From IMG/VR virus record IMGVR_UViG_3300027499_000378, positions 1-25,236 of that record: DNA of 25,236 bases; one strand, written 5' to 3'. The stretch is from a virus. The notes beneath the pieces were generated by a model. It did not search any database, had not been told where the DNA came from, and worked only from the letters and a program-made list of their open reading frames with translations. Below, one piece after another: positions 9,403 through 14,112 of this stretch. A program made the position numbers and the translations under genes. How positions within the stretch are numbered: position 1 is the stretch's first letter; the number at the start of each line of letters is the position of its first letter.

Positions 9403-9435
9403 TATAGTTCGTTATCTCTAAAGGAGGAAATGCCA

Positions 9436-9987
9436 ATGGAGAATATAAAACAGCGCTTGAGTGATGTTGCTCATAACTGGTCGTATATAGGAATGATAAC
9501 ATTATTTTTATTTACTGTCCAGCCTGGACCAACAGTTACACAAGCATTGCAGGTGGAAACACCTAAATCAACAGTACAACTAAAGAAAGAAACCTTAGAG
9601 AAGTACAGCACTACTGTGTACAAGCCTTCTGAGATGCTAACAGACGGAGAACTAAAAGAACTCCTATCAGCTGTTGGTTTTGAAGGAAAAGCCCTTAAAC
9701 AGGCTTGGGCTATTGTTAAGGCAGAGTCTAATTCAAGACCTATGGCTTACAATGGTAACAGGAAAACTGGAGACAGTTCCTACGGAATTTTTCAGATTAA
9801 TATGTTGGGTGAACTCGGCATTGATCGTAAAGAAAAATTTGATCTAAAGTCAAACATATTATTGTTTGACCCCGTAATAAATGCAGAGATAACGTATTAT
9901 ATGACTAAAGGCGGCACTGATTGGTCATCGTGGTCTTCCCTCAATGGGGCAAGATACAAAGAGTTCCTAACCGAATTCAAAGATTAG
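9436..9987 (+). CDS. Membrane-anchored lytic transglycosylase (SLT/lysozyme fold)
   Basis: 183 residues from the ATG at 9436. I chose this start because AAGGAGG (9421-9427) is 8 nt upstream; an ATG at 9430 is only 2 nt away. Residues 15-30 (WSYIGMITLFLFTVQP) are a hydrophobic signal-anchor. Residues about 85-175 are a lysozyme-like SLT domain: catalytic E97 in AIVKAESNSRP, GDSSYGIFQINM (about 112-123), and the C-terminal DPVINAEITYY...WSSWS segment. It cleaves the glycan backbone of peptidoglycan. The anchor suggests a SAR-type endolysin, though a virion-associated lysin is possible. It is the first gene of a plus-strand run of five. Confidence 0.87.
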   Translation: MENIKQRLSDVAHNWSYIGMITLFLFTVQPGPTVTQALQVETPKSTVQLKKETLEKYSTTVYKPSEMLTDGELKELLSAVGFEGKALKQAWAIVKAESNSRPMAYNGNRKTGDSSYGIFQINMLGELGIDRKEKFDLKSNILLFDPVINAEITYYMTKGGTDWSSWSSLNGARYKEFLTEFKD

Positions 9988-9999
9988 AGAGGAAGGTAC

Positions 10000-10206
10000 A
10001 TGAAGATACAGTACGTGTCTAAGTACCTTCAACTCGCAGAGAAGGGCCTTGTTCCTAGACTTGAATGTCCGATGGATCAGGGCCCTTTAATGTGCAACGA
10101 AACAAATGAGGGTATAATTTATCTATACTGCTTATCTTGCCAGTATAAAAATAATATAGGGCTGGAGATATATGGAAACCTCAAAAGAGCCGTCGATTCA
10201 AATTAA
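10000..10206 (+). CDS. Small zinc-ribbon-like protein
   Basis: 68 residues. Four cysteines arranged C23-x8-C32 and C44-LS-C47 suggest a small zinc ribbon. A Shine-Dalgarno GAGGAAGG lies just before the ATG. It follows the lysin by 12 bp and its end overlaps the next small gene. Function unknown. Confidence 0.7.
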   Translation: MKIQYVSKYLQLAEKGLVPRLECPMDQGPLMCNETNEGIIYLYCLSCQYKNNIGLEIYGNLKRAVDSN

Positions 10207-10294
10207 TACTGATGGCGGACAAATAAAAGAAACAGACCAAATGGGTCGAGAGAAGTTTTGGGAAGATTTAGGACGACCAAGTGATCGAGGATGA
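10172..10294 (+). CDS. 40-residue acidic hypothetical protein
   Basis: Begins METSKEPSIQINTDGG and ends DLGRPSDRG. GGAG lies 6 nt upstream of the ATG. It overlaps the preceding zinc-ribbon gene by 35 bp and the next gene by 14 bp, the overlapping layout seen throughout this run. No domain recognised. Confidence 0.55.
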   Translation: METSKEPSIQINTDGGQIKETDQMGREKFWEDLGRPSDRG

Positions 10295-10502
10295 AAAGCC
10301 ACAAAATTTAGAAGACAACCTACCTATGGTTAATTACATTATGCTACATAGAATATATGACCTTTTGACACTTATTGCCAATAAGCTAGTCGGTCCAGAA
10401 GATGTATCAAAGATGGTTGAATATCACGATCAGGGATACCTATTGGGTCCTGCCCCATCATTTAGCCCTGGAGAACAAGAAGATGACGCACAGTCCTCAT
10501 AG
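10281..10502 (+). CDS. 73-residue hypothetical protein (GTG start)
   Basis: Starts with GTG at 10281 (reads MIEDEKPQNLEDNLPMVN), with AGGA 7 nt upstream. The central part (YIMLHRIYDLLTLIANKLV) is amphipathic and helical; the ends are acidic. Its 3' end overlaps the following gene by 20 bp. No family recognised. Confidence 0.6.
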   Translation: MIEDEKPQNLEDNLPMVNYIMLHRIYDLLTLIANKLVGPEDVSKMVEYHDQGYLLGPAPSFSPGEQEDDAQSS

Positions 10503-10686
10503 TATTAATGTTATAGAAGGATATTTAAACAAGTGCTTAAACGTAGAAAACGGCAGGTGCAACTTAACCTGGAAGCACGAAGATTGTAGAGTCCTAATGG
10601 AAATACTTTACGAAATGACAGAAGACAACAAGTACAAAGAAAAAGAATGGACATTTGATCCAGGGAAAAAGCTTCTCTGGGAATAA
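10483..10686 (+). CDS. 67-residue hypothetical protein
   Basis: I place the start at the ATG at 10483 (MTHSPHSINVIEGYLN), 9 nt after GGAG, rather than the upstream in-frame ATG at 10402, which would overlap the previous gene by 100 bp. Cysteines at 17, 25 and 34, a tryptophan pair, and a basic C-terminus (FDPGKKLLWE). Last gene before the small-RNA locus. Function unknown. Confidence 0.6.
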   Translation: MTHSPHSINVIEGYLNKCLNVENGRCNLTWKHEDCRVLMEILYEMTEDNKYKEKEWTFDPGKKLLWE

Positions 10687-10691
10687 AATGC

Positions 10692-10720
10692 TTGACATAG
10701 AATTTACCTTATTTTATACT
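10692..10720 (+). promoter_or_regulatory. Near-consensus sigma70 promoter for the small RNA
   Basis: TTGACA (10692-10697), 17-bp spacer, TATACT (10715-10720). One of the best-matching promoters in the window; no open reading frame follows before the terminator. Confidence 0.75.
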
Positions 10721-10725
10721 TCATA

Positions 10726-10823
10726 GGTACTGGTTGTAGCATCCCACAGATTAAGCTCCCAGTATAACGTGTAGCAATACACTAGAAAACCCCAATCGGA
10801 TCCGCCTCTGATTGGGGTTTTTT
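10726..10823 (+). ncRNA. Candidate structured small RNA (about 98 nt)
   Basis: The transcript would run from the promoter at 10692-10720 to the terminator ending near 10823. Inside: TACTGG (10728-10733) pairs with CCAGTA (10759-10764), enclosing a 25-nt loop; then a perfect 5-bp hairpin, GTGTA-GCAA-TACAC (10769-10782), with a GNRA tetraloop; then the terminator stem. There is no ORF with a start and Shine-Dalgarno. I do not recognise the RNA family. It could be a regulatory RNA or an antisense/decoy RNA. Confidence 0.6.
10786..10823. terminator. Bidirectional rho-independent terminator
   Basis: CCCCAATC (10790-10797) pairs with GATTGGGG (10810-10817), with A-run before and T-run after, so it can stop transcription in both directions. 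It separates the plus-strand small RNA from the minus-strand tRNA genes. Confidence 0.85.
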
Positions 10824-10834
10824 CTTTTACTAAG

Positions 10835-10907
10835 CCTCTTCGGCAGGAGTCGAACCTGCGACCAGTCGGGTAGAAACCGAATGCTCTGTCCTCTGAGCTA
10901 CGAAGAG
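10835..10907 (-). tRNA. tRNA-Arg (anticodon TCT)
   Basis: Acceptor arms CTCTTCG/CGAAGAG pair perfectly, D-arm GCTCAGAGGACAGAGC, T-arm GCAGG-TTCGACT-CCTGC, anticodon loop TTTCTAC giving TCT (plus-strand 10872-10874). It reads AGA/AGG codons, which AT-rich phage genes favour. No CCA encoded. Confidence 0.93.
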
Positions 10908-10908
10908 T

Positions 10909-10982
10909 TGGAGCGAGTGACCAGAATCGAACTGGCACTATCTGCTTGGAAGGCAGAGACACTACCATTATGTAACACTCGC
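10909..10982 (-). tRNA. tRNA-Gly (anticodon TCC)
   Basis: Acceptor GCGAGTG/CACTCGC, anticodon stem TCTGC/GCAGA with loop CTTCCAA giving TCC. Unlike its neighbours it carries an encoded 3' CCA. It reads GGA codons. Confidence 0.92.
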
Positions 10983-10986
10983 ATCG

Positions 10987-11059
10987 CTGCCCCACCTGGC
11001 CTCGATCCAGGGACATCCGAATTAACAGTTCGGCGCTCTACCAACTGAGCTATGGGGCA
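10987..11059 (-). tRNA. tRNA-Asn (anticodon GTT)
   Basis: Acceptor TGCCCCA/TGGGGCA pairs perfectly, anticodon stem CCGAA/TTCGG, loop CTGTTAA giving GTT. First of three tRNAs in transcription order. A TATACT hexamer on the minus strand about 8 nt upstream may be its -10. Confidence 0.93.
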
Positions 11060-11683: not shown

Positions 11684-12514
11684 TTAGTCAACTACTTTAT
11701 TATTCTCTTGTATAATTTCATAAACTAATAAATCTACATCTGACTCTCTTTGAATTATAACGTCCGTACCATTATTTAAAAGAATATCTGTTACTCCCAT
11801 AGCCTCTAATTCTAAAATCTTTTTCTTAACAGTTTCTTTTGTTCCGTATATTGCCCATCTTTTAATTCTATGATGATCTGAAACACTTTCTTCTAACTCT
11901 TTAAGTGCCTGCTCATCTGTATCTCTAATTACAATTTGAGCACTGATCATAAGTCTTTTATAGTTTGATGTAAATAGATCTGGATTCCTTAAGAAGTCAT
12001 CTATCATAACCAAACCGATATCTGCGTACTTAGCGCATTTTAGTATTGTCTCTTCATGTCTAGAGCCTAATAAGATCAATGGCTTCTTGCCCATAACATA
12101 AGTCTGAGAAAGTCTTTCCATCCACCCCGTCATGAATTCAAGTCTTCCTAGAGGAGTTGATATATCGACATCTACTTCATAGCTTGGCTCTGGGAGAATA
12201 TTAGTTTCTTTGCCCCCCATTTCACCAGATACTACATTTAACATTAATCTGTTAGGAGAAATTTCAGCAAATGCGGCTGCCATCTGGTTTACAATTTGAG
12301 CACTTTGTTGATAAGGTCTGACTGCAATCATGTATTTTATTTTCTTTGCAGGATCTATTATGTGAGCAGATTTTATCCAGTTATCTGAGTTAACTCCTTT
12401 TGCTGTAAGCAATATAGAGTCGTATCCATATTTTTCTTTATGAGAATACATTCTTTTCATTGAAGATATTCCAAGATTGGTTTCGTTTCTATTCATCCAG
12501 TGGAATGTTACCAT
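11684..12514 (-). CDS. Luciferase-like flavin monooxygenase (SsuD/LLM superfamily)
   Basis: 276 residues from the ATG at 12514, 7 nt after AAGG; a second ATG at 12520 is too close to that site. N-terminal VTFHWMNRNETN, then GYDSILLTAKG, KIKYMIAVRPYQQSAQIVNQ and SPNRLMLNVVSGEMGG follow the strand order of the bacterial-luciferase TIM barrel, nearest to alkanesulfonate monooxygenases. It would use reduced FMN (or F420) and, for SsuD types, O2; the substrate is unknown. At 276 residues it is shorter than SsuD (about 380). It overlaps the DUF6065-like gene by 26 bp, so the two are translated together and probably act together. An auxiliary metabolic gene. Confidence 0.75.
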   Translation of the reverse strand: MVTFHWMNRNETNLGISSMKRMYSHKEKYGYDSILLTAKGVNSDNWIKSAHIIDPAKKIKYMIAVRPYQQSAQIVNQMAAAFAEISPNRLMLNVVSGEMGGKETNILPEPSYEVDVDISTPLGRLEFMTGWMERLSQTYVMGKKPLILLGSRHEETILKCAKYADIGLVMIDDFLRNPDLFTSNYKRLMISAQIVIRDTDEQALKELEESVSDHHRIKRWAIYGTKETVKKKILELEAMGVTDILLNNGTDVIIQRESDVDLLVYEIIQENNKVVD

Positions 12515-13205
12515 TATCATACCTTAATTTAATAGATTTTACTTCGTGCTTTCCGTAAAGTTTACCATTATGATTTACGCCATCTCTGTAGTTGCCAGTA
12601 GTTTTTCCAAGCTTCTGCATCATTGCATTGTGTCTGTAATACTCTTCTCCTGTATTTTTCTGATACTCTAATTCTTTAAATGGCTTCTTCGTTCCCACAG
12701 ACTCATTTAGCTGACTTAATGATATTGGCATAATAGCAGATACTGGAGTTCTTGCTGGTAGAACTATCTTATAATTTGATCTTGTAACCTGTCCAGCTAC
12801 TTGCCAAGGTCCTTCAAAAAAAGAAGTGGATATAAGTGTTGTAAAAATTTGAAATCCGTCAACAAATAGGTTTGGTACTGGATACGATAACATACTGACA
12901 TCTTCATCTGTCTTGAATATTAAACCTGTTCTAAAACTTACAGTTCCCCAGCCTCTGTCCATGTTAACCCACTTATGTCCAGAAGTTACTTTGATACTAG
13001 AAGGTAACACATTCATGTTCCCATCCCATTCAAATATGATATCGTCTGGAAAAGATATGCCATAACCCATTTGATTAGCAAGGGTCATTGGAAAACATTT
13101 ATATGCGTGAGGATAAGGCAGATCTGTAGCCCATTGTCTTTTCGTTGGTAAAGGTTCTAAAATTGCAGTAGGTCCTGGAAGTTCGTATACATCAAAATTA
13201 TACAT
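12489..13205 (-). CDS. DUF6065-like protein
   Basis: 238 residues. The pattern YKCFPMTLANQMGYGISFPD, IFEWDGN, then GWGTVSFRTGLIFKTDED, PVPNLFVDGFQIFTTLI, and a C-terminal PARTPVSAIMPISL segment matches what I know of DUF6065, a family of unknown function often found beside biosynthetic or oxygenase genes. No signal peptide or membrane segment. It precedes and overlaps the luciferase-family monooxygenase gene; a shared substrate is the natural inference. The family name is by recollection of motif order only. Confidence 0.6.
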   Translation of the reverse strand: MYNFDVYELPGPTAILEPLPTKRQWATDLPYPHAYKCFPMTLANQMGYGISFPDDIIFEWDGNMNVLPSSIKVTSGHKWVNMDRGWGTVSFRTGLIFKTDEDVSMLSYPVPNLFVDGFQIFTTLISTSFFEGPWQVAGQVTRSNYKIVLPARTPVSAIMPISLSQLNESVGTKKPFKELEYQKNTGEEYYRHNAMMQKLGKTTGNYRDGVNHNGKLYGKHEVKSIKLRYDNGNIPLDE

Positions 13206-13992: not shown

Positions 13993-14112
13993 CTATTATG
14001 TACTATATATGTTATATATGTTATATGTTTTATATTTTGTATTTTTTGTATTTTCTGACCCCCCGACCCCCCTATGGAAGTATAACATTTGAAATATTCT
14101 AAGGTCAAGGGG
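13993..14112. other. Divergent intergenic region, AT-rich with C-runs
   Basis: Separates two leaderless genes. It contains degenerate TATATGTTATATATGTT-type repeats (about 13997-14055) followed by two C-runs (CCCCCCGACCCCCC, about 14060-14073). No gene seen. Confidence 0.5.

Follow-up and report, generated by a model that had tools for sequence, protein, structure and literature searches.

The 25,236-nucleotide stretch of viral DNA analyzed here (positions 1 to 25,236 of IMG/VR record IMGVR_UViG_3300027499_000378, hereafter the window) carries a gene for a structured small RNA (sRNA) which, we consider very likely (with a probability of roughly 0.82), is a phage-encoded antisense RNA acting in trans on the phage's own whiB operon. 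Comparison of related phages shows that a structured RNA gene exists in them, and that a matching site lies in the whiB-operon leader of every phage in which this could be checked. That the RNA is made, that the two RNAs pair, and that this pairing alters the output of the operon are inferred, and we have no expression or binding data. Furthermore, as the window is a fragment without whiB, the sRNA/whiB pair cannot be checked in the window's own phage.

The sRNA gene and its neighborhood are arranged as follows (positions are those of the window).

9430–10686, plus strand: small-gene operon upstream of the sRNA, found in 97 of 105 distinct sRNA contexts
9430–9987, plus strand: SLT_3 lysozyme-like gene (Pfam SLT_3), first of this operon
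10000–10206, 10281–10502 and 10483–10686, plus strand: further genes of this operon
10692–10697, plus strand: −35 hexamer TTGACA of the sRNA promoter, read directly from the sequence
10715–10720, plus strand: −10 hexamer TATACT, after a 17-nt spacer (TATAMT, TACAAT or GATAMT in relatives)
10727–10824, plus strand: sRNA, with an inferred 5′ end at about G10727 and a 3′ end within the T run
10727–10733, plus strand: 5′ strand of the closing stem P1, GUACUGG, pairing with 10759–10765
10734–10747, plus strand: antisense segment UUGUAGCAUCCCAC (UYGUAGCAUCCCAC family-wide), its predicted partner being the whiB-operon leader
10755–10757, plus strand: GCU of the inner helix, partner of AGC at 10738–10740 (GUU, with a G-U pair, in some relatives)
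10759–10765, plus strand: 3′ strand of P1, CCAGUAU, partner of 10727–10733, with covariation
10769–10782, plus strand: P2 hairpin GUGUA-GCAA-UACAC (in relatives, GNRA or UUCG/UUAG-type loops, with stems replaced as pairs)
10784–10823, plus strand: terminator hairpin of 17 bp plus T run, predicted to be bidirectional and common to the convergent tRNA genes; the stem covaries in part
10799–10807, plus strand: conserved terminator loop GAUCCGCCU, a candidate second pairing site (anti-AGGCGGA)
10834–11059, minus strand: three tRNA genes (Arg-TCT, Gly-TCC, Asn-GTT), convergent with the sRNA and using the same terminator

The promoter matches the consensus at 11 of 12 hexamer positions, and the sRNA of about 98 nt, which has its own promoter and intrinsic terminator, contains neither an ATG nor a coding frame. 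Its 5′ end is inferred from the 5–6 nt that separate the −10 hexamer from the base preceding P1 in pattern-matched family members. RNAfold assigns the sRNA a folding energy of −39.4 kcal mol–1, compared to a mean of −20.7 kcal mol–1 for shuffled sequences (z = −5.9, with none of 200 shuffles equaling it). In hairpin 1, P1 (GUACUGG/CCAGUAU) encloses a large loop containing the inner AGC/GCU helix, such that the unpaired part consists of AUCCCAC and a variable linker.

A sequence-only reading of the window had described this locus as a dedicated, stand-alone RNA gene of unrecognized family, and most of its claims held: the near-consensus TTGACA-17-TATACT promoter, the roughly 98 nt without an open reading frame, the perfect 5-bp GNRA-tetraloop hairpin (P2) and the strong terminator. 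The closing stem, given as 6 bp, is real but comprises 7 bp, the loop given as 25 nt is refined by the helix inside it, and the placement between two opposed operons holds only in part, the downstream unit being the three minus-strand tRNA genes. That this is a dedicated RNA is supported by some 150 related contigs, in which promoter and terminator are retained and the stems vary in a compensatory way, and by the absence of an Rfam match, with transcription still inferred. A lack of structural conservation in relatives had been named beforehand as refuting the idea; such conservation was looked for and found, far beyond chance.

An exact 22-mer of the sRNA is present in 45 IMG/VR contigs, and looser patterns extended this to 75, 94 and at least 120 contigs, a few of the matches being due to chance. 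The full motif occurs in about 150 IMG/VR phage contigs (151 matches, three of which are the window and its two copies). The promoter type is retained family-wide: among 95 distinct members, 63 carry TTGACW with a 17-nt spacer as found by regular expression, and the other 32, read by eye, have TTGACT with a GATAMT-type −10 hexamer. Hairpin 1 contributes one fixed single-stranded stretch, UYGUAGCAUCCCAC, and the terminator loop another, AUCCGCCU. These fixed loops are not a search artifact, since they are kept in matches of patterns that did not force them: GTAGCATCCCAC is present in 76/76 matches of a pattern that does not contain it, and GATCCGCC in 94/94 true-member matches of a pattern that likewise lacks it (three further matches are non-members). 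A single strong copy of the sRNA was found in each of 25 records, and the weak covariance-model matches on the opposite strand correspond to the terminator palindrome.

With a covariance model, 78 members were aligned, and the model matches the window at 10726–10824 with 89.3 bits. Paired cells make up 98.1% of this alignment, compared to 86.5% in shuffles, 17 pairs are changed on both sides, and the covariation score is 0.403, as opposed to 0.183 for shuffles, with slid structures not exceeding 0.055. All seven pairs of P1 show changes on both sides, with 100% of cells paired, and the P2 stem varies in sequence between members, its GNRA loop being exchanged for a UUCG-type loop. We note that the alignment was fitted to the structure, yet P1 and P2 pair in unfitted sequences too. 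Loop–loop dimerization through the palindrome GGAUCC was considered and dropped, as one member (L079) breaks the palindrome yet keeps the stem.

At the sRNA, no Rfam 15 family scored above its gathering cutoff, with only tRNAs matched, and relaxing the threshold to E 5 yielded only tRNAs and weak, unrelated sub-cutoff matches. A blastn search against cultured phages and plasmids found no match to the sRNA (short conserved blocks alone would miss significance), and the GTDB species genomes gave two matches, both in Marinobacter and outside the sRNA family.

The downstream side of the gene differs between phages (tRNAs, HNH endonucleases and others). Of the first 25 sRNA records, 11 encode WhiB, including every one of at least 85 kb, and the WhiB family is restricted to Actinomycetota;PMC10202952 the hosts are thus inferred to be Actinomycetota. 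The proteins neighboring the sRNA, as well as orf75-whiB, resemble those of Streptomyces phages of the Stanwilliamsviridae. From sequence alone, we infer that the carriers are a large freshwater group of uncultured, actinobacterium-infecting phages distantly related to the Stanwilliamsviridae, without assigning a host genus. As a separate observation, the window also encodes, at 11684–13205 on the minus strand, a luciferase-like monooxygenase adjoining a DUF6065 protein, in a phage.

The sequence-only reading had suggested target prediction with the hairpin 1 loop, and this loop complements the phage whiB-operon leader. Complements to both fixed stretches were sought on both strands of six near-complete genomes (G001, G006, G009, G010, G011 and G018). 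The top-ranked complement of UYGUAGCAUCCCAC is, in 6/6 genomes, the 5′ end of the whiB-operon mRNA (gene order orf75-whiB-orf108-orf65-orf78), where it would form 12–14 bp with the leader sequence G(U)GGGAUGCURCGG, directly after TATAAT. When the leaders of 103 ortholog groups were scanned, the whiB operon gave a mean of −25.8, compared to −13.3 for the next group and −17.7 for the best of 60 shuffled segments. The site is present in 13/13 of the records first found with both the sRNA and the whiB operon, with energies of −22.6 to −23.6 kcal mol–1. The sRNA has an accessible segment that complements the leader of an mRNA from another locus, and relatives conserve this feature. As for rRNA as a target, E. 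coli 16S, 23S and 5S rRNA offered only matches of 6–10 nt including G-U pairs, none outstanding, and this candidate was rejected.

A pattern search for the site by itself returned 75 contigs, of which 59 were then found by script to carry the orf75 motif; the remainder encode mostly orf75- or whiB-like proteins as judged by eye, with five having no readable open reading frame before the contig end. Searching 40 site-bearing records with the sRNA model recovered the sRNA in six, four of them clearly divergent (66–76 bits), with identical fixed loops and different stems. The neighboring lysozyme-like gene is present in exactly these six records, and its absence from the other 34 indicates that they do not cover the sRNA locus. 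The Streptomyces relatives keep orf75-whiB, and the site is absent from the five leaders of theirs that were examined. These Streptomyces phages of the Stanwilliamsviridae also share the upstream protein, and our R1 search found no RNA at the syntenic place; eight of their genomes gave no credible sRNA, the one weak match (E 0.04, 18.9 bits) lacking both conserved loops.

The whiB site starts 5–12 nt after TATAAT and lies about 17–31 nt upstream of the start codon. With the transcription start inferred, the predicted duplex covers approximately nucleotides 3–16 of the mRNA and ends 8–9 nt before the Shine-Dalgarno sequence, leaving the latter free. Exchanging seeds in silico weakened the predicted binding in 16/16 pairs, and cofolding of the full structures gave modest net energies (−1.1 to −11.2 kcal mol–1). 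Both partner stretches are near-invariant, and such variation as occurs is only wobble-compatible (Y in the sRNA facing G, and R in the mRNA facing U); because of this near-invariance, the duplex lacks any fully compensatory change.

In the mechanism we propose, the sRNA of about 98 nt would be transcribed independently, with hairpin 1 displaying UYGUAGCAUCCCAC. The seed AUCCCAC, in the open loop, would contact the extreme 5′ end of the whiB-operon mRNA, the product of a separate locus of the phage, and pairing could then spread into the weak AGC/GCU helix and reach the base of P1, to a total of 12–14 bp. A duplex beside the ribosome site may then either repress initiation or be cleaved. We prefer this outcome because of the position of the site relative to the start codon and Shine-Dalgarno sequence, and rank it as the most probable, at a confidence no better than that of its being as likely right as wrong. 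Stabilization of the mRNA at its 5′ end ranks next and remains conceivable, and any other outcome appears unlikely; in each case, the effect is inferred.

The closest rival thus retains the same sRNA and the same target, and differs in sign: pairing at the 5′ end could shield the whiB-operon mRNA from 5′-end-dependent decay and so activate the operon, in the manner of FasX, which is reported to stabilize streptokinase mRNA by binding its 5′ end.PMC3675131 The duplex position, at approximately nucleotides 3–16 with the Shine-Dalgarno sequence uncovered, agrees with 5′-end pairing, and for one leader group a helix between the site and the start codon is predicted (GAUGCUG:CAGCAUG); binding would free the start codon. 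However, such masking is not general, with a mean of 1.98 cis pairs compared to 1.61 in controls and none in many leaders, and the duplex adjoins the predicted ribosome site, a position at which pairing is often repressive. Activation is a possibility we keep, whereas start-codon unmasking as a general mechanism, being predicted in that one leader group only, is unsupported and was rejected.

The remaining alternatives dispense with the pairing or demote it. It could be argued that the common 12–14 nt are a DNA operator, with one phage regulator binding at the whiB promoter as well as at the sRNA gene, without RNA pairing. In support of this, a partial dyad, CCGYAG...CTRCGG, in the whiB promoter overlaps the site, and in the leaders inspected, A-type right halves always occur with T-type left halves, and a right-hand G with C or T. 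However, both CCGYAG and CTRCGG are absent from all matched sRNA promoters, the GGGAT half of the site is conserved in whiB leaders despite lying outside the dyad, and in the sRNA the sequence occupies the loop of a covarying stem, where its variable base can form either a G-C or a G-U pair with the mRNA; nor would an operator account for the fixed terminator loop. We thus consider this reading very unlikely as a whole, but because the partial dyad overlaps the site, a DNA-binding protein may share its CTRCGG part, and some of the conservation could conceivably reflect this. Action mainly on host RNAs or a host protein, with the whiB match as one target among several or a by-product, would fit the near-invariance of both loops across diverse phages, a pattern that added constraint from a conserved partner in the host would produce. 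Against this, in each phage genome searched, no other place matches as well as the whiB-operon leader (host genomes were outside the search), and the sRNA and the whiB site co-occur, such that we regard this explanation as unlikely. Finally, phage operons are commonly separated by promoters and terminators, and the locus might be functionless debris of this kind, but nothing else favors this, and the paired substitutions in P1 and P2, the fixed loops and the conserved promoter spacing all speak against it; with covariation refuting it, debris is all but excluded. Antisense pairing with the whiB-operon leader remains our preferred reading.

The fixed terminator loop probably has targets of its own, a second set marked by AGGCGGA at their ribosome-binding sites, but this is no more than a hypothesis, and is weaker than the whiB pairing. 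In the ortholog scan, 2 of the 60 shuffles did as well as the AGGCGGA signal. Upstream of starts, AGGCGGA occurs at 26 sites and is thereby the top heptamer among 105 of similar composition, and AGG+CGGA gives 23 sites compared to 9.5 expected. Coding sequence and the repeated counting of orthologous genes both confound this test, and several sites lie inside the coding ends of upstream genes. A two-armed regulator, in which hairpin 1 would set the level of the WhiB operon, itself a means of manipulating the host, and the terminator loop would simultaneously control replication and other genes with AGGCGGA sites, is possible.

Several further sequence features were observed alongside these analyses. 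GGCGGA is strongly strand-biased in the six near-complete genomes (113 vs 20 in G018). A small membrane protein is encoded under a separate TTGACA-TATAAT promoter (G001:1985, minus strand; G010:89561, plus strand; G009, at about 9950, plus strand), and the ribosome-binding site of this gene, GAGGCGGA(T)ATG, matches the terminator loop in full. The dyad formed by CCGYAG in the −35/−10 spacer and CTRCGG in the leader was seen in the whiB-operon promoters L220–L294 and, in the tested fully sequenced phages, essentially only there. Near the sRNA locus, a second conserved element without a long ATG-led open reading frame (L007:8558, L176:49, L196:9225 and about 20 other loci) consists of a TTGAC-TATACT promoter, GGTTTGTGGGGG(G)CTTACACT...CTC and, about 60 nt further on, GGGGGGWAGGGGGGCTTT; it may be another noncoding RNA or an unusual leader. 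At 14108 of the window (minus strand), as well as at L008:3247, L038:11442, L064:655 and L071:8899, a strong promoter is followed by CCATAGGGGGGTCGGGGGGTCAG and an A-rich tail, which is conserved and has no long open reading frame immediately after it.

Phage RNAs that control phage regulators are already known; novelty, within the searches made, lies with this family, its host group and its target. In VpdS of VP882, 24B_1 of Phi24B, sar and sas of P22 and OOP of lambda,PMC12197685 a phage-made RNA pairs with a phage mRNA and alters a regulator, as proposed here. However, sar, sas and OOP are cis-antisense RNAs, whereas our sRNA is encoded far from its target, comes from actinobacterial phages, and shows no sequence homology that we could find to any of the five. 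For VpdS, binding to Hfq is reported, and the maturation of 24B_1 involves Hfq;PMC12197685 most actinobacteria are not known to have a recognized Hfq. The actinobacterial 6C RNA (Rfam 6C / B11 sRNA) is, as general background, similarly built from two hairpins with C-containing loops, one of which is the terminator, but it carries runs of about six C in both loops, whereas the loops here contain AUCCCAC and UCCGCC, with an extra GNRA/UUCG hairpin between them. With no C runs, and no Rfam 6C match at the gathering threshold or at E 5, identity with 6C was rejected. FasX of Streptococcus pyogenes uses short pairing at the 5′ end of its target mRNA, as predicted here, without homology.PMC3675131 On the target side, the likeness is to mycobacteriophage TM4, whose own WhiB-like protein is reported to down-regulate host whiB2 and to affect division (Rybniker 2010, cited in PMC11797047). 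The literature we searched contains no case of RNA control of a phage WhiB-like gene.

RNA control is poorly charted in actinobacterial phages, and the present work provides a covarying family with a specific, testable target. The target side matters in its own right, as it is a WhiB regulator, of the kind reported in TM4 to interfere with host WhiB2, and as the pair extends across a large, uncultured group of freshwater phages, it should be open to a phage-free reporter assay. The sRNA also shows how a terminator hairpin can bear a fixed, possibly functional loop. If the two-armed reading is true, takeover and replication would be coupled by one 98-nt RNA in a widespread group of uncultured actinophages, presumably without Hfq.
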